This document shows, one piece after another, positions 1 through 17,584 of a stretch of 27,211 bases of DNA (position 1 is its first letter; each line of letters starts with the position of its first letter). The DNA comes from a virus. The stretch spans positions 1 to 27,211 of IMG/VR virus record IMGVR_UViG_3300037247_000895, one strand, 5' to 3'. A program made the translations under genes and the position numbers. The notes beneath the pieces were generated by a model. It searched no databases and was not told where the DNA came from. It worked only from the letters and a program-made list of their open reading frames with translations.

Positions 1-40
1 CCATTCTGAGCGTCTGTATAGATTCAAAAGCGGTGGGGGA

Positions 41-268
41 ATGAGAATCCCTGACGCGCCCCGCCTGCTACCAGAAGCCGCTGGCGTCGCCGAGTACGAC
101 GGCCGCCGCGTCACTCTCTTGGGGCCATATGGCACGAAGCTCGATTGGTGGCTGGTTTCTGGGAGCTGGGCACTTCCCGGAACCCAGCCTATGCTCTACG
201 TTGGTCGGGACGAGGCCGAGGCCCGCAAGGTGTTCGAGGCTGAGGCCGAGAGACTGAGGAATGGATAA
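41..268 (+). CDS. Hypothetical small protein upstream of terS
   Basis: A 75-residue ORF that I do not recognise. It is mixed alpha/beta in character, with a Trp-rich centre (DWWLVSGSWALPG) and a charged helical C-terminus rich in Glu, Ala and Arg. There is no signal peptide or membrane segment. The purine run GGGGGA touches the ATG directly, closer than a normal Shine-Dalgarno, so the start is uncertain. The 3' end overlaps the next gene by 8 bp, as in a compact late operon. Its place just before the small terminase suggests an accessory or moron gene; function unknown. Confidence 0.5.
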   Translation: MRIPDAPRLLPEAAGVAEYDGRRVTLLGPYGTKLDWWLVSGSWALPGTQPMLYVGRDEAEARKVFEAEAERLRNG

Positions 269-491
269 CGTCGACACCTGGTGCATTGCTTTTGAGCGCC
301 GTCTAGTGGAGCGGGGTATCTACATCGGCAGGCGGTCATATTCGGACGACCTAGAGGCTTACGGTGGGGCGGTGACTTACCAACTAGGCCAACCTCCCGA
401 GCACATGCATGCCAGGATTAGCTATGTCCTCATGCTTCAGGGTACTCCTGCGGTTGCCGCCGATTATGTGGTAGAGAGGCTGAGGGGCTAG
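261..491 (+). CDS. Hypothetical small protein
   Basis: A 76-residue ORF starting ATG inside the end of the preceding gene, with GAGGAATGG-type purines just upstream. The N-terminal half (MDNVDTWCIAFERRLVERG) looks helical and the C-terminus (PAVAADYVVERLRG) ends in another helix. No known family is visible. It stops two bases before the small terminase start, so it is probably co-translated with the packaging genes. Confidence 0.5.
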   Translation: MDNVDTWCIAFERRLVERGIYIGRRSYSDDLEAYGGAVTYQLGQPPEHMHARISYVLMLQGTPAVAADYVVERLRG

Positions 492-493
492 AA

Positions 494-922
494 ATGCCAG
501 CACCAGGAGTCAAGCCGAACGAGGGCCAGCCTGTCCGTCACCGCGTCAAGCCACGACACGAATGGGTTGAGGTAGAGCACCGGCCTTTCGAGGATGGGCC
601 CCGGTTGCCACGCAACCAGCCGAGCGGACCGCTCTGGCCGGCGGCGACGAAGCGCTGGTGGGGGGTCATCTCCCGGATGCCCCATTGCATCCTGTGGGAC
701 GAGGCCGACTGGCAGTTCGCCCTAGATACGGCTTCTGTCGCTGCGGCCTTCCACGGGGGGGACATGAAGCAGGCGGTGGAACTGAGGCAGCGGGAGAAGG
801 TGATGGGCACGACGCTGGACGCCCGCCGCGACCTCCGCATCCGCTACGTGGAGGCGGTGCAGGAAGAGGAGCGACCAGCTATTGCAGCTATCGAAGACTA
901 CAGGAAGGCGCTGAGAGAATGA
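494..922 (+). CDS. terS: Terminase small subunit
   Basis: A 142-residue protein with the pattern of phage small terminases common in high-GC host phages. A Pro-rich N-terminus precedes a PSGPLWPAATKRWW block (about residues 43-56). An SRMPHCILWDEADWQFALDTA helix pair follows, then a Gly-Asp turn, an ELRQREKVMGTT segment and a DARRDLRIRYVEA helix. In this family the protein binds phage DNA and loads the large terminase for head filling. The position, 0.9 kb upstream of terL, supports the call. The gene ends in an ATGA overlap with the next ORF. The alternative is a generic DNA-binding phage protein, which I think unlikely. Confidence 0.8.
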   Translation: MPAPGVKPNEGQPVRHRVKPRHEWVEVEHRPFEDGPRLPRNQPSGPLWPAATKRWWGVISRMPHCILWDEADWQFALDTASVAAAFHGGDMKQAVELRQREKVMGTTLDARRDLRIRYVEAVQEEERPAIAAIEDYRKALRE

Positions 923-1149
923 GAATCACGGATGATAATGGGCTAGACTTAGGTCACTTAGGCATTCTAGAGTTTCGGCCAGGAGAGATTGCGATAATTC
1001 GGTGCGAACGCCATCTCACGATGGATCAACTTTATGAGTTGAAAGACGCATGGGCCGAGGCACTCCCTGGAATCAAGGCGATAATTCTGACAGACGGCAT
1101 GACGATAGAGAAGGCCAGAGAGGAAATGACAAAGGCGCTGGAGGGATGA
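919..1149 (+). CDS. Small phage protein, unknown function
   Basis: A 76-residue ORF whose ATG overlaps the terS stop (ATGA at 919-922). The C-terminal two thirds have a repeated phage small-protein look: a hydrophobic strand (GEIAIIRCE), a helix (MDQLYELKDAWAEALPG) and a second strand (IKAIILTDG), then a charged helix. This beta-alpha-beta layout recurs in small proteins of many tailed phages with no assigned role. A longer in-frame ORF exists upstream, but it would lie wholly inside terS, so the overlapping ATG is the better start. Confidence 0.6.
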   Translation: MRITDDNGLDLGHLGILEFRPGEIAIIRCERHLTMDQLYELKDAWAEALPGIKAIILTDGMTIEKAREEMTKALEG

Positions 1150-1382
1150 TGCCTGACCAGTTGGAAGAGACGCTGATTAAGATTCAGGATGCCTTAGAGA
1201 ATCTGGCTGAGCAATTGGGCTTAGCCTGGAAGGACTATATCCGGAAGACATATCCGGAGCGGGCATGTCCGAACTGTGATTTCGTGGCGGCTGAGGAGGG
1301 CGAGGAATTCCTGCCCTGCCCAGGGACTGGTTCAGTATTGCATGGCGTCTATGAAACAAGATCGAGGACAGGGGCCGAATGA
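1146..1382 (+). CDS. Small Cys-containing phage protein
   Basis: A 78-residue ORF starting ATGATG across the previous stop. Residues 1-45 are predicted helical and amphipathic (LEETLIKIQDALENLAEQLG). A CPNC pair near residue 49 and a later CPG give a partial zinc-ribbon pattern; only three Cys are present, so metal binding is uncertain. It ends in an ATGA overlap with a clearer zinc-ribbon gene. Function unknown. Confidence 0.6.
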   Translation: MMPDQLEETLIKIQDALENLAEQLGLAWKDYIRKTYPERACPNCDFVAAEEGEEFLPCPGTGSVLHGVYETRSRTGAE

Positions 1383-1594
1383 TCACCGATACTGATCTTA
1401 CGTGCCCGCGCTGTGGTGGGAGGGACTTCGAGGAACATGACTGCGGCCCAGATGGATGGGATGATGACGTGACGTGGATATCTGAGGTCTGCACCCATTG
1501 TCGCCTTTGGTACTCCGGCTGGACCGAGCAGTGGCTTATTGATTGCGCAGTCTGGACGGACGAAGAGGATGCCGAGGAGTTTGTGCCGCAATGA
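1379..1594 (+). CDS. Zinc-ribbon small protein
   Basis: A 71-residue acidic protein with two Cys knuckles: CPRCGG at residues 9-14 and CTHC at about 38-41. These could bind one zinc in a ribbon fold. The spacer is rich in Asp and Trp. Such small ribbons are frequent phage accessory proteins, either nucleic-acid or protein binding; nothing here shows which. The ATG overlaps the preceding stop (ATGA) and the TGA overlaps the next start the same way. Confidence 0.62.
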   Translation: MITDTDLTCPRCGGRDFEEHDCGPDGWDDDVTWISEVCTHCRLWYSGWTEQWLIDCAVWTDEEDAEEFVPQ

Positions 1595-1845
1595 CCATCG
1601 CTCTCGCCCCGCCCGCCAGGATCGGTACTGTTGAGCATCCCCTCACCGGCGATAAGTGGGACGTTCTTGACCGTCGTGGTCTCTTCCGGTGTAGGCATCG
1701 TTTTCTATTTCGCACAGTTAAGCCGAACGAGGGATATGGCTATTTTATGGTCGCCAATGCATCTGCGGCCGCACATCTCGTCGAATGCCAACGAGGATTC
1801 ATGTTCGGATGGCGAACTAATATCGGAGTCCGGGCTGGCCTATGA
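1591..1845 (+). CDS. Hypothetical small protein before terL
   Basis: An 84-residue ORF that begins and ends in ATGA overlaps, which marks it as a real member of the packaging operon. It is basic, with short beta-rich segments (GTVEHPLTGDKWDVLD; GYGYFMVANASAAAHLVE), and I do not recognise it. It contains the coding block for VKPNEG, also found near the terS N-terminus; the shared 13 bases look coincidental. Confidence 0.58.
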   Translation: MTIALAPPARIGTVEHPLTGDKWDVLDRRGLFRCRHRFLFRTVKPNEGYGYFMVANASAAAHLVECQRGFMFGWRTNIGVRAGL

Positions 1846-3494
1846 CGACCGAAGCCCCGCCCATAGGCATCCACATCGGCCCCACGACTGTCCCAGAGCG
1901 CACCCTCGGCTGGGAGATCCTCGGTTGGACGAAGGAGTACCTCCTGCAGCCGGACGGCCCGAATGCCGGCGAGCCGTGGGTCTTCACCAACGAGCAGGCG
2001 CGTTTCGTGCTCAACTGGTACGCCATCGATGAGCAAGGCCGGTTCGTCTGGCGCTATGGGATGCTGCGCAGGATGAAGGGTTGGGGCAAGGACCCGGTGG
2101 GCGCCGCCCTCTCCTGCATCGAGTTTGTCGGGCCGTGCCGTTTCCACCACTGGGATGGCTCGGCAACCCTTATCCCTTCCATGAAGCTCCCCGCCGACCA
2201 GGGTTTCGGTGAACCCGTCGCCGGGCCCCACTATGCGGCCTGGGTGCAGATAGCCGCCGTCTCCCGCGACCAGACCCGCAACACCATGACGCTCTTCCCC
2301 GGCATGATCTCGCCCAAAGCCATCGAGGAGTTCGGCATCGACATCGGCAAGGAGATCATCTACGCCTATGGCGGGCGCCGGCGTATTGAGGCGGTAACGA
2401 GCTCGCCCCGGGCGTTGGAGGGCGGGCGGGCCACCTTCATACTGAAGAACGAGACCCATCACTGGCTAGCACCGAACGAGGGGCATGAGATGAGCAAGGT
2501 CATCGCCCGTAACGCGGCGAAGTCCCGCGATGCCTCCTCGCGGGTGCTGGCCATCTCGAACGCCCACGCTCCCGGCGAGGACTCGGACGCCGAGCACGAT
2601 TACGAGGCTTGGAAAAAGATCGACCAGGGCCTTTCGAAAGCTACGGGCCTTCTCTACGAATGTCTCGAGGCACCAGAGGAGACGGACCTAGAGGACGACG
2701 AGTCCTTGATGGCTGGCCTCCTGGCGGCGCGCGGCGACTCCGAGTGGGTCGACCCTGACCGCCTGATCGCCGAGATTCACGACCCCCGGACTTCGGCGGC
2801 GATGGCCCGGCGCTTCTACCTGAATCAGATCGTCGCCGAGGAGGACAAACCCTTCGACAGCAAGAAATGGGAGACGCTGGCGGGGACAGGTCGCAAAGTC
2901 CCGGACGGCGCGCTTATCACCCTCGGCTTCGATGGTTCCATCAGCCAGGACCACACGGCACTTATCGGGACCGAGGTGGCGACGGGGCATCAGTGGGTCG
3001 TGGGCTACTGGGAGCCTGAGATCATGGCTGACGGCGAAGTGCGCATCCCCTTCATGGAGGTCGACGAGACCGTTGATGCGGCCTTTGGGCGCTGGAAGGT
3101 GTGGCGCTTCAACTGCGATCCGTTCTACTGGAAGGACATGACGGCTGCCTGGGCAGGCCGCTACGGTGACGACGTCGTCGTCAACTGGGCGACGAACCAG
3201 TACCGAAGGATGGCGGCCGCTCTGCTCGCCTACCGGAACGCCATCGAGACCGGGGCGCTGACGCACGACGGGGACGCACGATTCACCGCTGCGATATATA
3301 ATGCACATAAGCACATGCGCGAATTTCGGGACGACCAGGGCGAGCGGATGTGGACCATCCAGAAGGAGCGGCCGGACTCACCGCTGAAGATCGACGCGGC
3401 GATGGCCGGGTGCCTGTCGTGGGAGGCGTCCCTCGCCGCTATCGCTGCCGGCGCGGTGGGTGAAGAGGACGAGGCGGGGGTATTCTTTGTCTAG
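1842..3494 (+). CDS. terL: Terminase large subunit
   Basis: A 550-residue two-domain packaging motor. The N-terminal ATPase has a deviant Walker A, RRMKGWGKDP at residues 76-85, of the type seen in many phage terminases. A Walker B-like strand ends in NETHHW (203-208), and the SRVLAISNAHAPGED segment (233-247) fits the ATPase coupling region. The C-terminal RNase H-like nuclease shows candidate metal-binding acids: D364 in LGFDGS, D426 in FNCDP and D518 in KIDAAMA. It translocates DNA into the prohead through the portal and cuts it. Length is normal and the ORF is intact. Its ATG overlaps the previous stop, and a TTG-start gene overlaps its own stop. Confidence 0.95.
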   Translation: MTTEAPPIGIHIGPTTVPERTLGWEILGWTKEYLLQPDGPNAGEPWVFTNEQARFVLNWYAIDEQGRFVWRYGMLRRMKGWGKDPVGAALSCIEFVGPCRFHHWDGSATLIPSMKLPADQGFGEPVAGPHYAAWVQIAAVSRDQTRNTMTLFPGMISPKAIEEFGIDIGKEIIYAYGGRRRIEAVTSSPRALEGGRATFILKNETHHWLAPNEGHEMSKVIARNAAKSRDASSRVLAISNAHAPGEDSDAEHDYEAWKKIDQGLSKATGLLYECLEAPEETDLEDDESLMAGLLAARGDSEWVDPDRLIAEIHDPRTSAAMARRFYLNQIVAEEDKPFDSKKWETLAGTGRKVPDGALITLGFDGSISQDHTALIGTEVATGHQWVVGYWEPEIMADGEVRIPFMEVDETVDAAFGRWKVWRFNCDPFYWKDMTAAWAGRYGDDVVVNWATNQYRRMAAALLAYRNAIETGALTHDGDARFTAAIYNAHKHMREFRDDQGERMWTIQKERPDSPLKIDAAMAGCLSWEASLAAIAAGAVGEEDEAGVFFV

Positions 3495-3741
3495 TAGGAA
3501 TCCTCACGCACAATGCGTTGGATATTGCAGGCATCCTCGCTCCCGATATGATGATCGTCTTCCCTATCGCTGCACGCAGGATTGGGAACATGGAGTTGAG
3601 CGAGTGCCTTTGCCCATTGATATAGTGAGGGCGCTCGACTCTCGGTTAGCACTCGAGGACAGCGATACCGAGGAGAGATTATATTGTGGCCGCGATTGGC
3701 CCAGGTGGGGTAAAGCGACTAGACGTGAGACGAAGGATTGA
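3487..3741 (+). CDS. Hypothetical small protein, TTG start
   Basis: An 84-residue ORF read from TTG, overlapping the terL stop by 8 bp (TTGTCTAG). A strong purine tract (GGCGGGGG) lies just upstream, which decides this start over positions deeper in terL. It has three Cys (CVGYC, then CTQDW) and a basic C-terminus. It is not recognised. Base composition is lower in GC than the flanking terL and portal genes, fitting an acquired accessory gene. It could also be spacer sequence open by chance, so confidence is moderate. Confidence 0.48.
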   Translation: MSSRNPHAQCVGYCRHPRSRYDDRLPYRCTQDWEHGVERVPLPIDIVRALDSRLALEDSDTEERLYCGRDWPRWGKATRRETKD

Positions 3742-3929
3742 AAACACATGCCATTACCGGAAGCATCGAGGCGGTCGGTCGTCTCCTCGGCTCCCTGCTT
3801 GACCGAGACGATCTGAAGGTCATCGGCCAGGGCGCCATCCTCCTGCTTGCGCTGGCGCTGGTGGCCATTGTCCTGGCGGCAACGGCGGGCCTCGCGCTCG
3901 CCGTCTTCGAGGGGGTGAGGGGGCTGTGA
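3738..3929 (+). CDS. Small single-pass membrane protein
   Basis: A 63-residue ORF with a TTGA start/stop overlap to the preceding gene and a GTGA overlap to the next. Residues about 32-57 are an uninterrupted hydrophobic helix (AILLLALALVAIVLAATAGL and on), preceded by a charged amphipathic stretch with DRDD. That gives one transmembrane span with little periplasmic tail. Small membrane proteins in phage late operons can be holin-like or host-interaction factors. Nothing here proves lysis, and no endolysin is adjacent. Confidence 0.5.
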   Translation: MKTHAITGSIEAVGRLLGSLLDRDDLKVIGQGAILLLALALVAIVLAATAGLALAVFEGVRGL

Positions 3930-4186
3930 GTTCAATACTCTATTGGCGCCGCCTGCCTACCCAATTTAGGGAAGCCCATGAACTCTCCTCGCAGCTCAAG
4001 TTTTTATTGGGACAACACCTATGGGGACATGATGGGAGCCTCCATTCGGCAGGGATGCAGATTCTCCCTGGCTCGACAGATTATGCCTTCCTCGCAGGGT
4101 TGGCCGCAGCCGATATAGAGGGGGCGAGAGGGTTATTGATGGCTATAGACGAATCCGAAGGCGTAGAACTCTCGATTGAAGGCTAG
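3926..4186 (+). CDS. Conserved-looking small phage protein
   Basis: An 86-residue ORF starting GTG in a GTGA overlap. The C-terminal half (YAFLAGLAAADIEGARGLLMAI) is a helical repeat-like segment followed by GVELSIEG. This resembles small unannotated proteins next to phage packaging genes. It has no membrane span or metal motif. It stops directly before the portal region, so it is likely co-transcribed with the portal gene. Function unknown. Confidence 0.58.
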   Translation: MSSILYWRRLPTQFREAHELSSQLKFLLGQHLWGHDGSLHSAGMQILPGSTDYAFLAGLAAADIEGARGLLMAIDESEGVELSIEG

Positions 4187-4210
4187 TTGGCTAAAGGGGG
4201 GAGGCCTGAG

Positions 4211-5719
4211 ATGGGACTTGTCGCGGACACATTCAGCCTAGTTCGCAACCGCGCTCCTCCGCTGCCCATCCAGAGAGCGGGGCAGTGGGCGGCGCCCCCG
4301 CAGCAGGGCTACTTGGGGTATTCCCGGGCCTACATGCGGAACGAGATCGTCTTCGCCTGTATCGAGATGCTGGCGACCTCGGCGGGCGAGCCGCACATCG
4401 TCGGCCGGCGCTTCCGGCGCGAGAGGCCGCAGATCAGGAACGAGGAGCAACGCCTGCAGGCGAGGGGAGTCCCGTTGCGAGACATCTACTCGCAGATGAT
4501 TACCAATGGCTTCTTCACCGACTTGCCCAACCACCCCCTAGTCCGCCTGCTGGATAAGCCGAACCCCTGGATGAGCCGCGGTCAGCTATGGGGAATGGTC
4601 GTTATGGACCGCGCCCTGGCCGGCAACTGCTATCTGCTCAAGGCGAGGGTACAGGGCGGGCCTCTGAAGGGCGCGATGGCCGAGCTGTGGCGGCTACGGC
4701 CGGACCGCGTGAGGATCATCCCCGATCCGGTCAACCATATCGCCGGCTACGAGTACAGGATTGGAACCGAGACGGTGACATACCCACCGCAGGATATCGT
4801 GCACTTCAAGACAAGGCATCCTCTGAGCGATTTTTACGGCATGCCGCCGCTACTGGTTGCCGCCGACCGCGTCACCATCGACGAGTATATGGGAAGTTTC
4901 CTGAGGGGCTTCTATGAGCGCGGCGGCACGGGTCCGGGTTCTATCCTCTCGGTCAAGCAGAGGCTTTCGCAGGAAGCTAAGGATGACATTCGCGACCGCT
5001 TCCGCAGCCAATTTGGCGGGAGTGCGGGCTTCCATGAGATGCTGATCCTGGACCAGGCCGAAAGCACTTATCAACAGATGGGGCTCAACCGTGGCCTGCG
5101 CGATGCCCTGCCCAAGGAGCTCGACGCCATGACGGAGGCCAGGATCGCCATGGTCTTCGGGATCCCAGGCTCCATCCTCGGCCTGCTCATTGGCTACGAG
5201 TCCTCGAGCTACGCCAACAAACGGCAGGATTGGCAGGTGTTCTGGGACTTGACCATGACGCCGCTTCTGAGCGACCTCGACGACGTGCTCAACCTCCAGC
5301 TTGTCCCGGAGTTCGGCTTCATAGACGAGGTGCTGTTCGATCTGAGCGACATCCGGGCCTTGCAGGAAGACGTCGACAAGCTCCACGAGCGGGCACGGAA
5401 GAACGGCCAAGCGGGCTACTGGTCCTTCGAAGAAGTGCGAGAGGCTACCGGTAAAGACCCTAATATTAAGAGTGGTACTTTCTTCATACCGTCCAGCAGC
5501 ATAGCGACTCCTATCGAGGAGATGGGCAAACGGGCAGAGCGATTGGCTGGACCTGGCGAAGACGGGGCTGAGGCTACGGAACCCGTAGGGAACCTGTTGG
5601 ACGAGGTACGACACGACTGTGGGCGCTTAGTCGCCAGGGATGTGGTGGGCAACCCAGAACTCCATTGCGATAAGTGCATGGAGAACTTCAGGCCCCATGT
5701 CGAACTGATCATCTCATGA
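4211..5719 (+). CDS. Portal protein, HK97 type
   Basis: A 502-residue HK97-family portal, the dodecameric ring at the capsid vertex through which DNA enters and leaves. Characteristic segments are the early NEIVFACIEMLA helix, the NHPLVRLLDKPNPWMS block, NCYLLKAR, LWRLRPDRVRIIPD, a VHFKTRHPLSDFYGMPPL turn and the GIPGSILGL region ahead of a long helical stem. I chose ATG 4211 because AGGGGGGAGG lies about 7 bases upstream; an in-frame TTG at 4187, right after the previous stop, lacks this. The C-terminus carries an unusual DCG...HCDKC cluster that could bind metal. It ends in an ATGA overlap. Confidence 0.95.
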   Translation: MGLVADTFSLVRNRAPPLPIQRAGQWAAPPQQGYLGYSRAYMRNEIVFACIEMLATSAGEPHIVGRRFRRERPQIRNEEQRLQARGVPLRDIYSQMITNGFFTDLPNHPLVRLLDKPNPWMSRGQLWGMVVMDRALAGNCYLLKARVQGGPLKGAMAELWRLRPDRVRIIPDPVNHIAGYEYRIGTETVTYPPQDIVHFKTRHPLSDFYGMPPLLVAADRVTIDEYMGSFLRGFYERGGTGPGSILSVKQRLSQEAKDDIRDRFRSQFGGSAGFHEMLILDQAESTYQQMGLNRGLRDALPKELDAMTEARIAMVFGIPGSILGLLIGYESSSYANKRQDWQVFWDLTMTPLLSDLDDVLNLQLVPEFGFIDEVLFDLSDIRALQEDVDKLHERARKNGQAGYWSFEEVREATGKDPNIKSGTFFIPSSSIATPIEEMGKRAERLAGPGEDGAEATEPVGNLLDEVRHDCGRLVARDVVGNPELHCDKCMENFRPHVELIIS

Positions 5720-5925
5720 ACAAAAAGTTCATCGTATTGCGCCAGTGCCCTCCATCTCTCGCGAGGTTGGAGGGCCAGTGGTGCGAAGTCGAATCCGTGA
5801 ATTTAGAGTTTGTCACTGCTGACGACGTCTTGACCTACATCAGCTTTATTGGTACCCGCCGGTTTGAGAGCAGAGAGGATGGATGCAGTGCAGAGGTCTT
5901 TAAACCGGAGAGGGACACGACTTGA
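5716..5925 (+). CDS. Hypothetical small protein
   Basis: A 69-residue ORF with an ATGA overlap to the portal stop. It is beta-rich (KKFIVLRQ; QWCEVESVNLEFV; VLTYISFIG) with three Cys. No family is recognised. A near-consensus promoter begins inside its stop codon, so this is the last gene of the packaging block before a new transcription start. Confidence 0.55.
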   Translation: MNKKFIVLRQCPPSLARLEGQWCEVESVNLEFVTADDVLTYISFIGTRRFESREDGCSAEVFKPERDTT

Positions 5926-5951
5926 CAACCGCAAAAGACTAGCCGCATAAT
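5922..5951 (+). promoter_or_regulatory. Predicted sigma70-type promoter before the head module
   Basis: A perfect -35 box TTGACA (5922-5927) and a -10 box CATAAT (5946-5951, five of six matches) are separated by 18 bp. Transcription would start near 5958. This is the best promoter-like sequence I noticed in the window. It sits exactly where the operon opens a 154-bp gap before the protease gene. Activity is inferred, not shown. Confidence 0.6.
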
Positions 5952-5975
5952 CATCTCGACAATAGTTTAGACGCG

Positions 5976-6034
5976 AGCGCAGCCGAGCGCCCCTAGCGGG
6001 CCAAATAGCGCAGCCAGAGCGTCCACAGCGGGCC
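5976..6034 (+). repeat. Imperfect direct repeat with hairpin potential
   Basis: Two copies, 5976-6002 and 6007-6034, each begin AGCGCAGCC and end AGCGGGCC. Each contains a small potential hairpin with a 4-bp stem and 5-base loop (GCCC/GGGC in the first, GTCC/GGGC with one G-T pair in the second). A third related hairpin is the terminator that follows. The repeats lie in the untranslated leader downstream of the predicted promoter. Confidence 0.55.
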
Positions 6035-6036
6035 TA

Positions 6037-6060
6037 GCGCCCCGAGTGGGCGCCTTTTCT
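6037..6060 (+). terminator. Intrinsic terminator or attenuator before the protease gene
   Basis: Perfect 6-bp stem GCGCCC (6037-6042) with GGGCGC (6048-6053), loop CGAGT, followed by CTTTTCT. This has the form of a Rho-independent terminator with a short T-run. It could end read-through from the packaging genes, end a roughly 100-nt RNA started at the promoter upstream, or act as an attenuator for the head genes. Confidence 0.58.
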
Positions 6061-6079
6061 TGTCTGGGAATAGGTGGCT

Positions 6080-7039
6080 ATGCCGCTGCCGAAGCCGAAC
6101 AAGGGGGAGGAGGAGTCCGATTTTGTCCACCGATGCATGGGTGAGACCGAGGAGGAGTTCCCCGACGAAAGCCAACGGGCGGCGGTCTGTCACCGGCAAT
6201 GGGAAGAGCGGGAGAAGAACAGGATGAAGTCCTGGTACAACATCCGCGATGCAGCCCACGGCGAGGTCGAGGTGCTGCTCTACGACGAGATCGGTTTATT
6301 CGGCATCCCTGCGGCTGAGTTCGTGAAGGATTTGCAGGGCATCAAGGCTCAGGTTATCAGCCTCCATATCAACTCCCCCGGCGGCGTAGTCTTCGAGGGC
6401 ATCGCTATCTACAACAGTCTCAAGCAGCATCCCGCCATCGTCAACGTCACTATAGACGGCATCGCCGCCTCTACTGCCTCATTCATTGCGCAGGCCGGCG
6501 ACCACATCATCATGGCGCAGTCCGCGAGCATGATGATCCACGACCCCCTCGGGAGCCTAGATGCCAAGATTGTTGGCAACGCTGGCGATCTCCGCAGTGC
6601 GGCACATGAAGCGGAGAAGCTTGCCCGGGTGCTAGATAAGGCGGCCGCCAGCATCGCGGGCATCTACGCAGGTCGGGCTGGCGGCACCGAGGAAGAGTGG
6701 CGAGCACGGATGGCCGAAGAGAGCTGGTATCAGGACCAGGAAGCCGTTGACATCGGCCTAGCCGATGAGGTGCTGGAAAGCAAGCCGAAGGTAGCTGCGA
6801 TGGCGGGGGGCGTCTTCAACCTCTCTAAGTTCAAGAATGTCCCGAAGTGGCTACAGAATCAGGGCGGCAGTTTCGAGGCGCCCAGCGGCGGTGACAAAGT
6901 AGACAAACCCGATGCCGAGGACGATCTGCCCGACATCGACTATGCCTGGCACCTCAAGGCGGGCGTCGGAAAAGTAATGGAACCGGACTTGCTGCCGGAG
7001 TACGACTTCGCCGGCGCAATCAGGGAGGGACTGAAGTAG
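6080..7039 (+). CDS. ClpP-like head maturation protease
   Basis: A 319-residue serine protease of the ClpP/SppA-like phage prohead protease type, which processes capsid or scaffold during maturation. The core (about 63-245) shows SLHINSPGGVVFEG, then IDGIAASTAS with the candidate nucleophile Ser131 and MMIHDPLG with His154, in ClpP order. Ahead of it is an extra domain of about 45 residues with the pattern PLPKPNKGEEE...HRCM...FPDESQRAAVC, a small helical motif found in various phage proteins. ATG 6080 is preferred; GTG 6074, two codons upstream, is possible. It directly precedes the capsid gene, as in HK97-like head modules. Confidence 0.92.
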   Translation: MPLPKPNKGEEESDFVHRCMGETEEEFPDESQRAAVCHRQWEEREKNRMKSWYNIRDAAHGEVEVLLYDEIGLFGIPAAEFVKDLQGIKAQVISLHINSPGGVVFEGIAIYNSLKQHPAIVNVTIDGIAASTASFIAQAGDHIIMAQSASMMIHDPLGSLDAKIVGNAGDLRSAAHEAEKLARVLDKAAASIAGIYAGRAGGTEEEWRARMAEESWYQDQEAVDIGLADEVLESKPKVAAMAGGVFNLSKFKNVPKWLQNQGGSFEAPSGGDKVDKPDAEDDLPDIDYAWHLKAGVGKVMEPDLLPEYDFAGAIREGLK

Positions 7040-7047
7040 GATGTAGG

Positions 7048-7085
7048 CCCCGCGCCGCCAGCTTGGACGGCGAGACGACGCGGGG
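7048..7085 (+). other. Stem-loop in the capsid gene leader
   Basis: CCCCGCG (7048-7054) pairs perfectly with CGCGGGG (7079-7085), and CGCC (7056-7059) with GGCG (7069-7072) forms an inner stem. No T-run follows, so it is not an obvious terminator. A second, short hairpin CTGGG-AGA-CCCAG follows at 7099-7111. Both lie in the 130-bp untranslated gap between protease and capsid genes and may stabilise or process the transcript. Confidence 0.45.
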
Positions 7086-7142
7086 TTGAGAGCAAGAACT
7101 GGGAGACCCAGCCCTCGCGCTTCTGTTGTAGCCGATGGCGGG

Positions 7143-7167
7143 CCTCCTGGCAAGGCAGGAGGAGGAG
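7143..7167 (+). promoter_or_regulatory. Hairpin overlapping the capsid ribosome binding site
   Basis: CCTCCTG (7143-7149) pairs perfectly with CAGGAGG (7156-7162) over a 6-base loop. The 3' arm is the first half of the GGAGGAGGAG Shine-Dalgarno tract just before the capsid ATG at 7170. The second GGAG stays unpaired, so the hairpin could tune ribosome access rather than block it. Confidence 0.48.
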
Positions 7168-7169
7168 AC

Positions 7170-8708
7170 ATGAACCCGCTAATCACGATGCTACAGGCGA
7201 TCATGGCGCACCCGTTCCATGCCGTCTCCAAGCCGACGATCCAGGCGTGGTCGAGGCTGAGGCGCGGCTGGTATCGCTTCCAGCTTCGGAGGCTGGGCAT
7301 CCCTGCTATGGCAGGTGGCGCAGGTGGCGCCAAGATCCCGATTCCCGAAACGCAGGCCGAACTCGATGAGCTGATGGGCGATCGGAAGAAGCTCGCCGAA
7401 CTCGTTGAGTCGGGCCAATTCCCCGAGGTCATCGGTGCCTATTCGAAGGCGGTCGACAAGCGCGGCGATCTCGCGACGATGGTGTCCGATCAGCTAAAGG
7501 CCTTTATGACGGGCGAACTGGCGATCCAGGACACCGTCGACAAGAGCGTCAAGGACTCGATGGAGACATTCTTCGCCAGCTACGGCGTCAACCGCCCAAG
7601 GATGGGAGCGCCCGATGACCCGCGTTCCGGGGCGGAACTGAATGCCTGCTACAACCCCCTGGCGCCGGGCACAAAGATGAACGATCTGGGCTTCGCCAAC
7701 CTGGGCGACTTCGCCCGTACTGTCTGGCACAGGAACCCGAACACGAGTGACGAGCGGCTCGGCAAGGCCAAGGCCGTCATGAATGCGTACAGCTCCGTCG
7801 ACCCTGCTACCGGGGGCTTCCTGATCCCCGAGACGATGCGTTCGGAGATTCTGCAGCTCGCGCTGGAAGACTCGATTGTGCGGCAACGGGCGACGGTCAT
7901 CACGATGGGCTCCCTCACCCAACTGATGCCGTTCGTCGACTCGACGACCAACGTGGGCAGCGTCCACGGTGGCATGATCTTCTACTGGACGCCGGAGTCG
8001 GGGACTCTCACCGCTACGCAGGCCAAGTTCGGGCGGCTCAAGCTGGAAGCCAACAAGCTGACAGGGCTCGCGGCCATCCCGAATGAACTCTGGGCCGACG
8101 CCCCAGCCCTATCTAGCTTCCTCATGCAGGCCATCCCGAAGGGTCTGGCCTTCTACGAGGATATTGCCTTCATCGATGGCAGCGGCGCTGGTGAGCCGCT
8201 TGGGTTCCTAAACTCCCCGGCCCTCATTGCCGTGACGAAAGAGACGGCCCAGGAAGCCGACACCATCGCGACCGGGAACGTCCTGGATATGTTCAAGCGG
8301 ATGCTGCCGAGCTCCCTGGGAAGGGCCGTCTGGATCGTAAACCAGTCCTGCTTCCGAGAGCTGATGGAACTCTCGATCGCAGTCGGAGTCGGCGGTGCCC
8401 CCGTGTCTCTGGTGGATATCCGCAACGCACCGCTGATGTCGATGCTCGGACGGCCGCTAATCATCTCGGAGAAGGTGCCGACGCTGGGCGACCAGGGCGA
8501 CCTCTGCTTCGTCGACTTGTCCTACTACCTGATCGGCGACCGGCAGGCGGTGAGCCTAGAGACCTCGGAGCACCGGTACTTCGAGCTTGACGAGACCGCC
8601 CTTCGTGTGATCGAGCGCGTCGATGGCCGGCCATGGGTACAGTCCGCGTTCACGCCGCTGAACGGTGAGACCGTCAGCCCATTCGTGGCCATCGAAGCAC
8701 GAGCATAA
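7170..8708 (+). CDS. Major capsid protein, HK97 fold
   Basis: A 512-residue HK97-type capsid subunit. Residues about 1-190 are a helical, charged region (TQAELDELMGDRKKLAELVE; KSVKDSMETFFASYG), likely a scaffolding delta domain removed by the upstream protease. The HK97 fold follows, from ATGGFLIPETMRSEILQLAL through IFYWTPESGTLTATQAKFG, the long helix region GLAFYEDIAFIDGSG and GEPLGFLN, to LGRPLIISEKVP and the closing AVSLETSEHRYF strands. I chose ATG 7170 for its strong GGAGGAGGAG site; an upstream in-frame start at 7086 would translate the structured leader. The protein forms the icosahedral shell. Confidence 0.95.
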   Translation: MNPLITMLQAIMAHPFHAVSKPTIQAWSRLRRGWYRFQLRRLGIPAMAGGAGGAKIPIPETQAELDELMGDRKKLAELVESGQFPEVIGAYSKAVDKRGDLATMVSDQLKAFMTGELAIQDTVDKSVKDSMETFFASYGVNRPRMGAPDDPRSGAELNACYNPLAPGTKMNDLGFANLGDFARTVWHRNPNTSDERLGKAKAVMNAYSSVDPATGGFLIPETMRSEILQLALEDSIVRQRATVITMGSLTQLMPFVDSTTNVGSVHGGMIFYWTPESGTLTATQAKFGRLKLEANKLTGLAAIPNELWADAPALSSFLMQAIPKGLAFYEDIAFIDGSGAGEPLGFLNSPALIAVTKETAQEADTIATGNVLDMFKRMLPSSLGRAVWIVNQSCFRELMELSIAVGVGGAPVSLVDIRNAPLMSMLGRPLIISEKVPTLGDQGDLCFVDLSYYLIGDRQAVSLETSEHRYFELDETALRVIERVDGRPWVQSAFTPLNGETVSPFVAIEARA

Positions 8709-8720
8709 CCGATAGGCCAG

Positions 8721-8748
8721 TCGGGGCAGGCAATAAACCCCCTGCCCC
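8721..8748 (+). other. Nine-bp perfect stem-loop after the capsid gene
   Basis: CGGGGCAGG (8721-8729) pairs with CCTGCCCCG (8740-8748) over a 10-base loop. It begins 12 bases after the capsid stop. The downstream sequence lacks a T-run, so it is more likely a 3' stabiliser or processing site for the abundant capsid mRNA than an intrinsic terminator. Confidence 0.5.
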
Positions 8749-8795
8749 GGCCATTCACTCGCGGGCATTGAAACCCCTGCGAAGGAGGCAAGAAC

Positions 8796-9230
8796 ATGAA
8801 AGAGTTGGGCAAGGGTATCATCCCGTCCGCCGTGGCGACGGGCAAGCACTTCAACCTCAAGAACGCGAACGGCATCACCTTCATCTGCTACGAGAACGGG
8901 GGTGCCCAGGCGATCACGATCAAGGAGAGCATCGCTGGGGCCAGTGAGCAGGCGCTAGCTGTCGTGACCGAACTCTTCGCGAGTAACGGGGTCGGCGGGG
9001 TGATGACCCGTGAGACGACCGATGCCAATGGCGCATTGGGCACCGGCGACTCCGCCATCGTGAAGAAGGACACGGAGCCATTCGACCAAGCCATCTTCCA
9101 CATAGGCGCGTCCGAGCTTTCCGACGGCTTCGATTCCGTGGAGGTCACGGTCGACGCTGGCCAGTGCATCGGCATCGTGCATCCGCTCGTCCAGCGGGCA
9201 CCGCAGAACCTGCCGGCATCGGCGGTCTAA
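8796..9230 (+). CDS. Putative small virion protein after the capsid gene
   Basis: A 144-residue ORF with an excellent ribosome site (AAGGAGG, 9 bases upstream). It is beta-rich and Gly/Ala-rich, with no membrane span: GITFICYENGGAQAITIKES, ALAVVTELFASNGVGGVMTR and a closing strand VTVDAGQCIGIVHPLV. The place right after the capsid gene and the all-beta look fit a head decoration or minor structural protein, but I do not recognise the family. It is followed within 2 bp by another small gene. Confidence 0.68.
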   Translation: MKELGKGIIPSAVATGKHFNLKNANGITFICYENGGAQAITIKESIAGASEQALAVVTELFASNGVGGVMTRETTDANGALGTGDSAIVKKDTEPFDQAIFHIGASELSDGFDSVEVTVDAGQCIGIVHPLVQRAPQNLPASAV

Positions 9231-9232
9231 CG

Positions 9233-9541
9233 ATGGTCGACATCGAGAAGGTCCGCGCCGAACTCAAGCTCGTCGAGGCATTTCTTGCGAAGCGCTATCA
9301 CTACGAGCACCCGATCAAGGGACACCTCGCGGCTGCGCTTGAGTACCTGGGGGAGGAACAGCAAGGGGCGCCCCCTGAATCTGAGGTCGTAGACTTCCCA
9401 TCCATCGCGGTCTCTGAACCTACAGAGACAGATGCTACGGAGACAGGCGGCGCACCGGTGACTTCAGAGGCGGAGGCCACAGGGGAACCGTGGTCTACAG
9501 AGCCCGACGCACCAGCGCCGCGCAGACGAAAGAGAGGCTAA
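9233..9541 (+). CDS. Small protein with acidic low-complexity tail
   Basis: A 102-residue protein from ATG 9233. The first 45 residues are helical (VDIEKVRAELKLVEAFLAKR) with a HYEHPIKGHLAAALEYLG segment. The remainder is a disordered stretch rich in Glu, Pro, Thr and Ala, closing with a basic tail (APRRRKRG). The charge split could suit a protein linking capsid surface and DNA or another virion part; that is inference. It lies among head genes and its role is unknown. Confidence 0.6.
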   Translation: MVDIEKVRAELKLVEAFLAKRYHYEHPIKGHLAAALEYLGEEQQGAPPESEVVDFPSIAVSEPTETDATETGGAPVTSEAEATGEPWSTEPDAPAPRRRKRG

Positions 9542-9544
9542 CGC

Positions 9545-10021
9545 ATGAGCAATCCAACGAAGGGCAAAGCCATCCGGGAAATGGCCCTGGGCCTGAGAGT
9601 CGAGAAGACGGCGGTCTCCCTCGCCGACATCGACCTCTTCACCGTCAAGGGAGAGGTGCTCATCACCCTGCTCTATGGCGTGGTGACGGGAGTCGGTGAT
9701 GCTGGGCCCACGACCATCCTGTTGAACGAAAAGGCTGATAGCATCGCCCTCTGCGCCGCGACCACCGTAACCCTTGATGCCGTGGGTGAGGTCTACGTTC
9801 TCACGGGCGACAGGTTGGTCATTATGGGCGGTACCGGTGCGGTCCCGGTGCTCAAGGTGGCAGGTATCCTGGCGGCCTTCCCTCACAACGCAATCATTTT
9901 CGATGGTCAGGCAGGTCTTACCATCGAGCTCACGCAGACCGGCGACGACGCCACGCACGCCGTCAAGTGGACGCTCTGCTACATCCCGCTTGAGGAAGGG
10001 GCCTACGTCGAAGCCGCCTAG
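9545..10021 (+). CDS. Putative beta-rich virion protein
   Basis: A 158-residue ORF starting 4 bp after the previous stop. It has alternating hydrophobic strands and Gly turns (GEVLITLLYGVVTGVGDAG; EVYVLTGDRLVIMGGTG; AGLTIELTQTGDD) and no membrane helix. The layout resembles small trimeric beta proteins of phage virions. I cannot name the family. Candidate roles are head decoration or neck ornament. Confidence 0.63.
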   Translation: MSNPTKGKAIREMALGLRVEKTAVSLADIDLFTVKGEVLITLLYGVVTGVGDAGPTTILLNEKADSIALCAATTVTLDAVGEVYVLTGDRLVIMGGTGAVPVLKVAGILAAFPHNAIIFDGQAGLTIELTQTGDDATHAVKWTLCYIPLEEGAYVEAA

Positions 10022-10039
10022 GGCCAGGAGCGATAGCGG

Positions 10040-10204
10040 GTGACGGTCGTACTCATCACGAGCATTAGGACCTTCGTCGGCGTGTCGGGTGATACGAAGC
10101 CCACGGATGCGCCGGCGGGGTCCACGTTCTACGAAACCGATACCCGGACCATCCATGTTTACAACGGCAGCGCCTGGAGCGCGAAGCTGGCGGATTTGTC
10201 ATGA
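10040..10204 (+). CDS. Small fibre-type domain protein, paralogue of the next gene
   Basis: A 54-residue ORF starting GTG with AGGAG 9 bases upstream, easily missed because it is short. It aligns along its whole length with the start of the next gene: both begin MTVVL-TS and share KPT--PAGSTFYETD and Y-GSAW. The module PAGSTFYETDT...VYNGSAW is a common surface motif in phage tail and head appendage proteins. Its last codon overlaps the next ATG. It is either a self-standing module or one half of a tandem duplication. Confidence 0.66.
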   Translation: MTVVLITSIRTFVGVSGDTKPTDAPAGSTFYETDTRTIHVYNGSAWSAKLADLS

Positions 10205-10776
10205 CGGTCGTTCTCACCACCAGTATTCAGACCTGGATAGGGCTCTCCTCGGACTCGAAGCCGACGAGCCCACCGGCAGGCTCGACGTTCTACGAGACGG
10301 ACAGCGGCGCCACCTACATCTACGACGGCTCCGCCTGGCAACTGCTCCTGCGTGGCGGGCCGTTCAAGGCCACCAAGAGCGTCACCTACGCCGCCGGCGG
10401 GACGGGGGCGAACGGTACGGCGACCGCCCTCTTTACCATCACGGGCGAGATCATCGTCGTCTCCCTGGCGCCATTCTGTGAGACCGATCTGGAGGAGAGC
10501 CTGGGAACCCCCAACTTGGCGCTGGGACTCGTGGGGAATACCGCACTCTTTCTCGGCGCCACGACCGCGACGGCCATCGATGCGGGCAAGTTCTGGCTCG
10601 ACACGACTCCCGCTGAGGTCGGCGGTATTGCTATCCCGGCCGCCCTCAAGGAGATCGCCATCACCGCGAACATTCAGTGCTTGGTCGGAGGGACCAACAA
10701 CATTTCGGCGGGAGTGATCCGCTACGACGTTCTTTGGCTTCCGCTGTCGTCAGATGGGTTGCTTGTTGCAGCTTGA
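10201..10776 (+). CDS. Putative virion appendage protein
   Basis: A 191-residue protein. Residues 1-48 carry the same module as the preceding small ORF (PAGSTFYETDSGATYIYDGSAW). The remainder is a beta-rich domain with alternating strands (KSVTYAAGGTGANGTATALF; GEIIVVSLAPFCETDLEES; ALGLVGNTALFLGATTAT; IQCLVGGTNNISAGVIRYDV), like a jelly-roll or fibre head. It probably decorates the virion surface. The C-terminal 27 bp overlap the end of the oppositely oriented HNH gene, so that insertion may have changed its final residues. Confidence 0.65.
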   Translation: MTVVLTTSIQTWIGLSSDSKPTSPPAGSTFYETDSGATYIYDGSAWQLLLRGGPFKATKSVTYAAGGTGANGTATALFTITGEIIVVSLAPFCETDLEESLGTPNLALGLVGNTALFLGATTATAIDAGKFWLDTTPAEVGGIAIPAALKEIAITANIQCLVGGTNNISAGVIRYDVLWLPLSSDGLLVAA

Positions 10777-11202
10777 GTGAGGACATGAACCGTAAAGACC
10801 GTTCGCCATATTACAGTTGTGGCAGAGAACCTGAAAGCCTTCGGGGTAATGCCGTTGTCTCAGCCATAAATAAGTATTATTGGCGATCTGCTTTCGGTGC
10901 GCACTCCCGCCACCGTTCACATGGTCAATTGAAAGAAACTGCACCGTTGCCTCTTGGCAGCAAGCGCACTTCCCGCCGTAGGCTGCAATGGCTGCGAGGC
11001 GGTTTTGTCTCCGCTGCACTTTCCCATGTTTTCTCGCCAGCGCCTTGCGTTCCTCACAGTGAGCCCAGTAATACTCGCGAGCGCGCCTCCGATTTTCTTC
11101 CCGCCCGCCAGGAGTGGCTAGCTGGGCCTGGCGATATTGCCGCATGTATACGGCTTTTCTCTTGCGTTGTTCGGCAACATTCACGTAACCAGTATAGCAC
11201 AT
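10750..11202 (-). CDS. HNH homing-type endonuclease
   Basis: The only minus-strand gene. It has a basic helical N-terminus (AEQRKRKAVYMRQYRQAQ) and an HNH core with CACC, LSIDHVNGGG (catalytic His-type strand), then EGFQVLCHNCNMANG supplying the Asn/Cys part. The Cys pairs likely bind structural zinc. Such free-standing HNH nucleases nick DNA and spread between phages. The start is uncertain: ATG 11202 gives 150 residues, GTG 11184 gives 144. A TATACT box (minus strand, 11191-11196) could be its own -10, making GTG near-leaderless. GC content looks lower than the neighbours, and it sits between two virion genes, as expected of a mobile gene. Confidence 0.85.
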   Translation of the reverse strand: MCYTGYVNVAEQRKRKAVYMRQYRQAQLATPGGREENRRRAREYYWAHCEERKALARKHGKVQRRQNRLAAIAAYGGKCACCQEATVQFLSIDHVNGGGSAHRKQIANNTYLWLRQRHYPEGFQVLCHNCNMANGLYGSCPHSSCNKQPI

Positions 11203-11236
11203 TGGGCTACTACATAGACCAGATCGAGGTAGCCGC

Positions 11237-11413
11237 GTGAGCTGGGCGCAGCTAGGGGCGATCCTGCGGGAGGCGCGAGAGACCGCCGCAGACGAGCGCC
11301 GCAAGCCCCCTGTGGCCTGTCCTTACGATGGGACGCCGCTCAAGTATCACCCGCGCAAGGGCCTGCTGTTCTGTCCGAATGGAGACTATCGGGTGCGGGG
11401 CCCGGCCCCGTGA
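11237..11413 (+). CDS. Small Cys-containing protein in the neck region
   Basis: A 58-residue ORF starting GTG with GAGGT 6 bases upstream. It has a charged N-terminal helix (LREARETAADERRKPP), then CPYDGTPLKYHPRKGLLFCPNG. This CP-DG-PL...G-L-C pattern is a treble-clef or ribbon-like module seen in small proteins beside head-tail connector genes of phages of high-GC hosts. Only two Cys are present. It begins right after the HNH insertion. Role unknown. Confidence 0.65.
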   Translation: MSWAQLGAILREARETAADERRKPPVACPYDGTPLKYHPRKGLLFCPNGDYRVRGPAP

Positions 11414-11435
11414 GCAATGAGGAGGATCGACTGTA

Positions 11436-11597
11436 ATGTTTAAGGCCTTTCGTTTTTGGCTGATGCGTCGCCTAGCTGGACGCACAGCGGTTGTCTTGAA
11501 TACAGACATCTGCTTTGTGGGACCCGGCTGTCATATCGCACCGCGCTATCGTGAGAGTGCGATGTTCTTGTCCAACCACCGCTTCCGTTCAGTGTAG
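11436..11597 (+). CDS. Hypothetical small protein
   Basis: A 53-residue ORF from ATG 11436 with GGAGG 10 bases upstream. The N-terminus is basic and aromatic (FKAFRFWLMRRLAGR), followed by VVLNTDICFVGPGCHIAP. I do not recognise it. The good ribosome site and operon position support it; its shortness counts against. The N-terminal stretch is amphipathic rather than a convincing membrane span. Confidence 0.42.
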   Translation: MFKAFRFWLMRRLAGRTAVVLNTDICFVGPGCHIAPRYRESAMFLSNHRFRSV

Positions 11598-11643
11598 CTT
11601 GTGGCTGGATCAGAAGAATCCGTGAGCGATGAGGGCTCGCTAG

Positions 11644-12720
11644 ATGTCGAACGCGACGCGTTGGTACAGCACCAGAAAGCTCGTCAAGGCCGCTGTGGGT
11701 ATCAGCGGCGCTGACCTTGACTCGCTCATCGAATCTTACATCGAGGTCGCGTCCGAAGACATAGAGAAATTCCTCGGCCGGCGCTTCATCCCTGAGACCG
11801 CAGTCAAGTCCTTTCGCTGGCCACCCCGGATTGGCGGCGGCACTATCCTCCGACTCGAAGACCTGGACCTACTCGCCGTTACACAACTACAGACCAAGGC
11901 TCAGGACGCGACGCCGACGACGATAGACGCCGCAGACTACTTCCTTGAGCCGGTGAATTCCGGTCCGCCCTACAGCCGGGTCGAGATTGACCTCTCTTCA
12001 AACGCGGCCTTCGAATCAGGCGATACCCCACAGCGTTCGATAGCCATCACCGGGAGGTGGGGCTACGGCGAGGACACGAAGACGGCGGGGGCCGTCGAAT
12101 CAGGCTTGGCCGCCGATGCCGCAGCGACGACGTTCGAGTGCTCCGACAGCTCGTTGATTGAGGTCGGTGACACCCTTCTTATCGAGGACGAACAGCTATT
12201 CGTCACGGGCAAGGCTCCGACCTTGCTGGCAGATAGTAATGCCACGCTCCTCTTTGCGATCACAGCTGATCTGACGGACAACGTTCTCACGTTGTCCGCG
12301 ATACCGGCACCCTACATGTTTGCAGGCGAAGTGATCCAAATCGATAGCGAACTTATGTTGATCGAAGTCGCGGCAGCGATAGCAGTAACCGTCAAGCGGG
12401 CTTATGACGGGACATTGCTGGCCACCCACGCCACAGATGCCGACTCGGTTAAGCCCTTCCGGTTGCTCACCGTCGTCCGGGGCGTGAACGGCACCACAGC
12501 GGCCGTACACGCGGACGATACGGCCATCTCGAAGTACGCGCCGCCAGCCGATGTCATGGAGTATTGCCGCGCCCAGGCTATCGCCCTTCATCAGCAGGGG
12601 CGGTCCGGCTGGACTGGCGTGATAGGCGACAGCGAAGGCGGGCAGATCGAGACCAAGATGTTCGCCCTCTGGTCCATGAAGCAGAACCTGATCGCCAAAT
12701 ACCGGCCGGTGACGCTATGA
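11644..12720 (+). CDS. Head-tail connector with inserted beta modules
   Basis: A 358-residue protein. Residues 1-140 match connector/adaptor proteins that plug the portal (LVKAAVGISGADLDSLIESY, a second helix with EDIEKFLGRRFIPET, then strand-rich RIGGGTILRLEDL). The family is usually far shorter; here residues about 150-300 are an insertion of two beta modules with the pattern I-VGD-L-I--E---V followed by V-RAYDGT---H and VVRGVNGTTAAVH. The connector helix returns at the end (VMEYCRAQAIALHQQGRSG). The inserted modules could project from the neck. It ends in an ATGA overlap with the next gene. Confidence 0.72.
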   Translation: MSNATRWYSTRKLVKAAVGISGADLDSLIESYIEVASEDIEKFLGRRFIPETAVKSFRWPPRIGGGTILRLEDLDLLAVTQLQTKAQDATPTTIDAADYFLEPVNSGPPYSRVEIDLSSNAAFESGDTPQRSIAITGRWGYGEDTKTAGAVESGLAADAAATTFECSDSSLIEVGDTLLIEDEQLFVTGKAPTLLADSNATLLFAITADLTDNVLTLSAIPAPYMFAGEVIQIDSELMLIEVAAAIAVTVKRAYDGTLLATHATDADSVKPFRLLTVVRGVNGTTAAVHADDTAISKYAPPADVMEYCRAQAIALHQQGRSGWTGVIGDSEGGQIETKMFALWSMKQNLIAKYRPVTL

Positions 12721-13076
12721 CTAGGCCCAGCAGGGGTAGTCCGCTGTGGGTTAACGTCGTCGTCCGCGGCCCGCTTTTTGACAAGAAGATCGATGCAGTC
12801 GTGAAGAGGGCATTGATTGCAGAAGTCCTGGCGAAAATCGAGGTGCGCCTGAAGCGGGGGGGCAAGGGGCTTGGTGCCAAGCGGAACATCGTGACGGCGG
12901 AGATGGCCTTGGGCCATGCGGCGGCACAGGCCGTTGGGATGGAGGTGAAGTCGACGAAGAAATACCCCCGCACCAAGGGCACGGCCTGGGTCAGCAAGAA
13001 CATCGCAATCGCAAGAGCGATGGCACCACGGGTGTTGCGGAAGGCAGCCAGGAGGATGGTGGGTGAGCTCAACTAA
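12717..13076 (+). CDS. Head-tail joining protein (HK97 gp10-like)
   Basis: A 119-residue basic protein in an ATGA overlap with the connector. The order of a strand (PLWVNVVVRGPLFDK), a long helix (VVKRALIAEVLAKIEVRLKR), a basic loop and a final helix (ARAMAPRVLRKAARRMVGEL) is that of gp10-type neck/tail completion proteins. Its position between connector and tail terminator supports this. Sequence divergence is high, so the exact family is inferred. Confidence 0.65.
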   Translation: MTRPSRGSPLWVNVVVRGPLFDKKIDAVVKRALIAEVLAKIEVRLKRGGKGLGAKRNIVTAEMALGHAAAQAVGMEVKSTKKYPRTKGTAWVSKNIAIARAMAPRVLRKAARRMVGELN

Positions 13077-13497
13077 TAAGGCAGCGTGGCAGAACATTCA
13101 GTCGAAGCTGATGGCGATGGGCTATTGCCGAGTGGCCGTGGTTGGTGAACCTCGCTCTGATGTTCAGAGCGGGATGGTCGCGATCATTCCACAGGGCGGG
13201 GATATTGACGAGACCTCCCTTGCTGCCCCTCGTGAGATCCACCGTTGTGTCCTGCGGTATTACCGCAATTGGCTTGAAGAGGAACAGGAGGAGACCGAAT
13301 TCGTCCTCGACCAGTTTCGGGCAGACATCCTTGAGGACATCTTCGGCGACTTCGAGCTGGGCGGGAACGTGGCCTATGCGCTTCCGGTGGAGTTCTCCTG
13401 GGAGTACGACACCATTACGGTCCAGGGCATTCTCTACCGGGTCGTGGACGTGATGATAGCCTACCGGATTGATGACAGCGCGACGTTTGCGCCGTAG
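13063..13497 (+). CDS. Tail terminator/completion protein
   Basis: A 144-residue ORF starting GTG with AGGAGG 7 bases upstream, overlapping the previous gene by 14 bp. It has an N-terminal helix (AAWQNIQSKLMAMG), central strands (GMVAIIPQGGDIDETS; HRCVLRYYRNW) and a long helix (EEEQEETEFVLDQFRADILEDIF), then strands (VEFSWEYDTITVQGILYRVV). This alpha/beta order fits tail terminator proteins, which cap the tube and join it to the head. Gene order just before the tube genes agrees. Confidence 0.6.
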   Translation: MSSTNKAAWQNIQSKLMAMGYCRVAVVGEPRSDVQSGMVAIIPQGGDIDETSLAAPREIHRCVLRYYRNWLEEEQEETEFVLDQFRADILEDIFGDFELGGNVAYALPVEFSWEYDTITVQGILYRVVDVMIAYRIDDSATFAP

Positions 13498-13505
13498 GAG
13501 GAGAC

Positions 13506-14654: not shown

Positions 14655-14665
14655 GAGGTTAGGCA

Positions 14666-15079: not shown

Positions 15080-15084
15080 CGGCG

Positions 15085-17583: not shown

Positions 17584-17584
17584 G

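Follow-up and report, generated by a model that had tools for sequence, protein, structure and literature searches.

A predicted leader RNA with alternative terminator arms precedes the protease and capsid genes of an uncultivated phage and is a candidate transcription attenuator

We asked what the non-coding stretch between the portal and head protease genes of an uncultivated phage is for. The window analysed here is an entire IMG/VR virus record of 27,211 bases, a genome fragment (27 kb) without the early region. A small ORF lies between the portal gene and this stretch, hereafter the leader, and an HK97-type capsid gene is next after the protease. The first-pass annotation had proposed that the leader encodes either a small RNA or an attenuator, and had likened it to the put sites of phage HK022. 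The genes and signals that frame it are as follows.

4187 to 5719, + strand: portal protein gene (Pfam PF04860, PHROG 12), upstream of the leader
5922 to 5951, + strand: sigma70-type promoter, TTGACA-18-CATAAT, an 11/12 match that no other site in 20 kb equals, with a promoter in the corresponding position in relatives
5958 to 5970, + strand: predicted transcript start region, GACAATAGTTTAG, positioned by analogy with relatives
6037 to 6061, + strand: compact intrinsic terminator, GCGCCC-CGAGT-GGGCGC then CTTTTCTT, with its 3' arm at 6048-6053, paired in relatives
6080 to 7039, + strand: Clp-type head maturation protease gene (Pfam PF00574; PHROG 2976 and 133), the first gene after the leader

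Both signals named in the annotation, the promoter and the 6-bp GC stem with a T-rich tail, were found. The promoter boxes (TTGACA at 5922-5927, CATAAT at 5946-5951) form the sole 11/12 match in positions 1-20000 of the window. Promoter-like sites as such occur at chance level (4 found vs 5.1 expected in 20 kb), and the promoter is credible through its position and conservation, not through site numbers. The terminator is the sole terminator-like site with six GC pairs in 20 kb, and its T run is interrupted. The protease does start after the terminator, as had been described, but its first codon is better placed at ATG 6080 than at GTG 6074; relatives such as L005 begin ATGCCGCTGCCGAAGCCG. The leader contains no ATG, which makes a leader peptide unlikely, and that reading was dropped. 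No tRNA or tmRNA was found in the window, and neither the window nor 20 phage loci matched any Rfam model, which speaks against any known riboswitch or T-box family.

Between promoter and terminator, the window holds repeats and several competing helices.

5976 to 6002, + strand: repeat copy 1, AGCGCAGCCGAGCGCCCCTAGCGGGCC, holding GCGCCC at 5987-5992 (complementary to the terminator 3' arm) and a hairpin at 5989-6001
6007 to 6034, + strand: repeat copy 2, AGCGCAGCCAGAGCGTCCACAGCGGGCC, with an alternative terminator 5' arm, GCGTCC, at 6019-6024, conserved in relatives
6030 to 6042, + strand: inner hairpin, GGGC-CTAGC-GCCC, whose 3' arm doubles as the 5' arm of the compact terminator, with compensatory changes in relatives
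5970 to 6023, + strand: possible long helix P1, GACGC at 5970-5974 with GCGTC at 6019-6023, from sequence inspection
6019 to 6053, + strand: alternative extended terminator, GCGTCCAC at 6019-6026 with GTGGGCGC at 6046-6053, enclosing the inner hairpin, from the minimum-energy fold

The two imperfect direct repeats reported earlier were thus recovered, together with a third, partial copy at 6032-6051 that had been missed. The accompanying statement that each repeat carries a small hairpin holds for copy 1 (GCCC-CTAGC-GGGC), but the second good hairpin, the inner one, straddles copy 2 and the terminator. Hairpins with a C(U/A)AGN pentaloop occur twice on the + strand of the window, both in the leader (5989 and 6030). 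Because the GGGCGC 3' arm can pair with two upstream arms, the direct repeats can be explained as interchangeable parts, most plausibly as alternative 5' arms that serve the terminator 3' arm. A simple antiterminator/terminator pair, inner hairpin vs compact terminator, was first assumed; this model was widened since the extended helix around the inner hairpin likewise abuts the T run. P1 is absent from the minimum-energy fold of the window. It is kept in the subgroup A relatives L014, L024, L030, L425 and L003, with a much shorter interior, as GACGCT/AGCGTC and GACGCC/GGCGTC. By itself, the window RNA was no more stable than its shuffles (z -0.64 and -0.32 in two computations), and structural claims must therefore rest on relatives.

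A separate repeat lies between two tail genes of the window, at 20036-20408, where eight copies of a 37-base unit recur at exactly 48-base spacing, each with one TTCTATAGAA-like and one ATCTTTTnnnAAAAGAT-like palindrome. As 48 is a multiple of three, open reading frames cross this region on both strands. Tandem Repeats Finder did not report the repeat.

Relatives were collected by a portal search (35 loci) and a portal profile (53 loci, partly overlapping), and 33 distinct portal-protease junctions were compared. Of these junctions, about 24 had a good promoter in the corresponding position, a scan-positive terminator was present in 29, and ACAACTGAATAG, a 12-mer at the predicted transcript start, was found in 18 at a match of at least 10/12. 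These counts were tallied by hand from a table, and they overstate the evidence because related phages are not independent. The order promoter, hairpins, terminator, Shine-Dalgarno and protease was kept where portals were 52-70% identical, and traces of the layout were visible at 38% portal identity (L410, L412). Leader DNA was 77-88% identical over 50-96 non-coding bases in phages whose portals were 58-60% identical. Identity to the window was 85% over 61 bases in L024, 88% over 50 bases in L030, 83% over 60 bases in L014 and 77% over 96 bases in L019/L021, with the strongest similarity in non-coding positions 6006-6066 (E-values 2e-11 to 4e-8). No isolated phage carried the same portal above 30% identity; the portal profile search of genome contigs for prophage relatives or a host found none, and in 400 Chloroflexota genomes the profile gave one weak match. 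A longer leader of about 130 nt was seen in L011 (4550-4690), L023, L025, L026 and L027. The L011-type leader differs from the short hairpin leaders in having two tandem GGCCNGAGCG..GAGCC units and a multi-branched fold (z -3.9).

A lack of stem conservation among relatives had been named as grounds for refuting the original claim, and the stems proved to be conserved. The inner hairpin showed compensatory changes at all four of its pairs across 16 leaders with seven distinct stems, the strands being assigned by hand, and it was 95.5% paired in A3. The compact terminator was paired in 100% of cells in 11 relatives. In 11 aligned leader ends, the extended terminator and inner hairpin together were paired in 93.9% of cells, and their covariation score exceeded all 500 shuffles and all slid versions. 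Thus, two mutually exclusive folds are each conserved, since positions 6037-6042 belong to both the inner hairpin and the compact terminator. The stems stay paired, whereas sequence elsewhere in the leader diverges rapidly.

Folding and arm counts in 23 leaders, whose boundaries were set after sight of the sequences, were compared with shuffles that preserve composition and not relatedness. Against dinucleotide shuffles the leaders were more stable (mean MFE z -3.0), with the window (-0.3) and L022 (0.1) as exceptions. Loops of the form C..G. made up 35% of hairpin loops vs 1% in shuffles. Two or more segments able to pair with the terminator 3' arm were present in 20 of the 23 leaders (4.4 expected), and in nine leaders at least two such segments were held by a sequestering hairpin (0.19 expected).

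We consider a transcription attenuator with a regulated intrinsic terminator, serving the protease-capsid operon, the reading that the evidence somewhat favours. The elements generally expected of an attenuator are in place: a promoter, a predicted leader RNA and an intrinsic terminator immediately before a gene. Four to six relatives (among them L008, L016, L033 and L022) keep the small hairpin and the terminator but have no detectable promoter of their own; in these four no promoter-like site was found in 400 bases of portal end and gap. The annotation's pair of options, small RNA or attenuator, fits the conserved layout and structures of the phage family, and these promoterless relatives tip the choice towards the attenuator.

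The other member of that pair is a non-coding small RNA acting in trans, some 100 nt long (5958 to about 6060), regulatory or packaging-related, with the head genes expressed mostly via read-through or from elsewhere. Its own strong promoter and strong terminator would suit it, as would the stable conserved folds in relatives. Phage lambda makes a short late transcript, which this layout resembles. Yet the promoterless relatives look like a regulated terminator and not like a small-RNA gene, and in most relatives the terminator ends 15-35 nt before the protease start, with only a Shine-Dalgarno stretch between. Rapid change outside paired stems, and the placement of the same start motif directly before head genes in unrelated phages, also count against a small RNA, which we regard as unlikely.

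A constitutive promoter followed by an inefficient terminator, which would tune the protease:portal ratio or insulate the operon without regulation, seems to us slightly less probable still. It would account for the interrupted T run (CTTTTCTT), and no regulator was found; the alternative arms, sequestering hairpins and loop sequence, however, show more conservation than a plain terminator would call for. This explanation, the small RNA and a DNA-level element are all opposed by the covariation, by the short distance from terminator to start codon and by the relatives that lack a promoter.

In an attenuator, the leader's 5' end could be where a factor acts, and here the relatives share a motif. 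In all subgroups except the window's own, the predicted transcript begins RYAACYGAATAG. In subgroup A, to which the window belongs (L003, L014, L019, L024, L030, L425), it is replaced by a conserved start, RCAAnnnAGTTnGACGC. At the corresponding place the window has the divergent GACAATAGTTTAG, which agrees with the (G)ACAACTGAATAG of the relatives at 8 of 12 positions and ranks 37 of 27200 12-mers under the motif profile; this does not suffice to establish the 12-mer there.

The pattern of a promoter followed by ACAACTGAATAG was found in 41 viral contigs and in at least 119 bacterial stretches, many from Chloroflexota and Clostridia. Among 19 proteins after the motif in viral contigs outside the portal family, nine were clearly identified as capsid protein or head protease and two weakly; they fall into roughly six groups. 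In bacteria, 12 of 18 loci scanned had the motif directly followed by a SAM, TPP, FMN or cobalamin riboswitch or a T-box. Among Chloroflexota SAM leaders chosen regardless of the motif, 14/23 carried it at 9/12 or better, vs 0.5 for permuted motifs. Of 21 Chloroflexota rRNA leaders, 17 likewise have it at the 3' end of boxA, in the form gcaccttaACAACTGAAGAG or gcaccttaACAACTGGATAG and 50-113 nt upstream of 16S; gcacattgACAACCGAATAG is present in some 16S-23S spacers. Exact copies number only one to three per host genome, and the exact 12-mer is therefore one variant of a looser signal.

Several further occurrences were noted. ACAACTGAATAG and its variants open riboswitch and T-box leaders in Chloroflexota, Clostridia, Synergistetes and others (L181-L299, L327-L356). 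Mycobacterium abscessus prophages (L059, L072, L116, L150, L169; OQ417973.1 23135-23617) carry a promoter with ACAACTGAATAG, after which nearly 500 bases lack annotated genes and may hold a leader or non-coding RNA. In a 200-kb viral contig (L061:1176-1221), a tmRNA-like sequence begins with the same promoter and a TTGACAACTGAATA motif.

Most relatives' transcripts are predicted to begin ACAACUGAAUAG, the 3' half of a host-type rRNA boxA region, and for that reason host Nus factors, NusA in particular, probably read the 5' end of the leader. M. tuberculosis NusA reportedly binds the RNA GAACUCAAUAG, a matching sequence. M. tuberculosis NusA is described as binding a boxC-like RNA (PMC6614801). 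A complete boxA, including a CUUU-type 5' half, was not found in the phage transcripts; since the motif starts 4-9 nt after the -10 box in most leaders, the 5' half of boxA would not be transcribed there. The Nus link applies to the family and extends to the window by analogy, because the window's 8/12 match is unremarkable by profile.

The position of the 12-mer is also an argument for placing the signals in DNA, with the palindromes as repressor or activator operators and the 12-mer as an initial-transcribed or lambda-Q-like loading sequence: in several relatives it straddles the predicted start. This we hold to be improbable, for the same motif occurs far from promoters in rRNA leaders and some 16S-23S spacers, and the stems vary with compensation, unlike fixed operators; on the latter ground the operator reading was rejected.

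For the attenuator, we infer from the anatomy, its conservation, the covariation and the common motif how the leader would work. RNA polymerase would start at about 5958 and make about 100 nt, and then either stop at the terminator near 6060 or read on into the head genes. The arms at 6019-6024 and 6037-6042 could each pair with the 3' arm at 6048-6053 to form a terminator, and 5987-5992 is a third candidate 5' arm. As the two alternative helices each reach the T run, either may terminate; an antiterminated state would arise where upstream hairpins with the C-U/A-A-G-N pentaloop hold the arms back and transcription passes. On this view, the outcome would depend on whether the nascent hairpins allow the terminator to form while polymerase is still on the T run. 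Read-through could be regulated by a factor that holds the arms, for example a protein on the recurring loop, or by a change in pausing, for example through NusA recruited by the 5' motif; either would admit polymerase to the head genes. That the loop recurs points to a second factor, one that binds RNA and comes from phage or host.

A broader proposal, which we put forward tentatively and judge possible rather than likely, is that these leaders form a hitherto undescribed class: two or three tandem pentaloop hairpins, each holding one interchangeable 5' arm of a single terminator, would in most members be coupled to a shortened rRNA-boxA (NusA-type) start, one also present in host riboswitches and T-boxes, and many unrelated phages would use the arrangement to switch on capsid genes. 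Text searches of the open literature returned no paper describing the 12-mer in a leader role or a late-phage leader of this kind. If the attenuator reading is right, premature termination of a structured leader, and not promoters alone, would control the head genes across a large group of uncultivated phages. The start motif also connects the leaders of phage capsid genes with riboswitches, T-boxes and rRNA leaders of Chloroflexota and Clostridia, and host Nus factors would on that view read one general leader code beyond rRNA.

How does the leader compare with known systems? The suggested parallel with HK022 put, a cis-antitermination RNA that acts by RNA alone and binds RNA polymerase directly, through the beta' zinc-binding domain, fared worst and is very improbable: promoter-proximal paired hairpins of about 70-100 nt before a terminator match the description of putL (PMC9378689) in layout alone, but the hairpins here overlap terminator arms, and neither their loop nor the 12-mer has a counterpart in that description. 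Against HK022 24-40.7 kb, the early region with both put sites, the best local score of the leader was 26, and shuffled leaders reached up to 31, with 7/60 at 26 or more; a regular-expression search for put sites in the HK022 record gave no reliable site. Sites of the put family lie just downstream of early PL/PR, and the leader lies between portal and head protease, ahead of late genes. Membership in the put family was therefore not supported; both have paired hairpins close to a phage promoter, and they differ in sequence, genes and anatomy (PMC9378689).

Lambda offers two partial parallels. Like the nut sites (boxA + boxB) used by N, the leader has a putative linear Nus-type motif followed by small hairpins with a conserved pentaloop near a promoter, but its C(U/A)AGN loop is not that of lambda boxB, its operon is the late head operon and its hairpin overlaps a terminator arm. 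In layout, pR'-tR' with Q is similar in having a late promoter and a terminator shortly downstream, before structural genes; the leader differs in lying between portal and protease and in having its conserved signals in RNA. The RAT hairpins of SacY/LicT/BglG are alike in anatomy, with a hairpin 3' arm overlapping the terminator 5' arm, but the phage leaders have two such hairpins each and a different sequence.

Leaders of the rRNA boxA and riboswitch kinds appear to be the closer comparison than put. Chloroflexota rRNA leaders have ACAACTGAAKAG at the 3' end of boxA, and spacer forms read ACAACCGAATAG; the phage transcripts differ in having no boxA 5' half (GCACCTT) and in meeting an intrinsic terminator within about 60-140 nt. 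Riboswitch and T-box leaders of Chloroflexota, Clostridia and Synergistetes differ from the phage leaders, which have small tandem hairpins in place of an Rfam aptamer and, in the window, a degenerate motif. With most of the phage relatives they share the 12-mer start, and with the phage leaders a promoter, alternative folds and a terminator just before the first gene.
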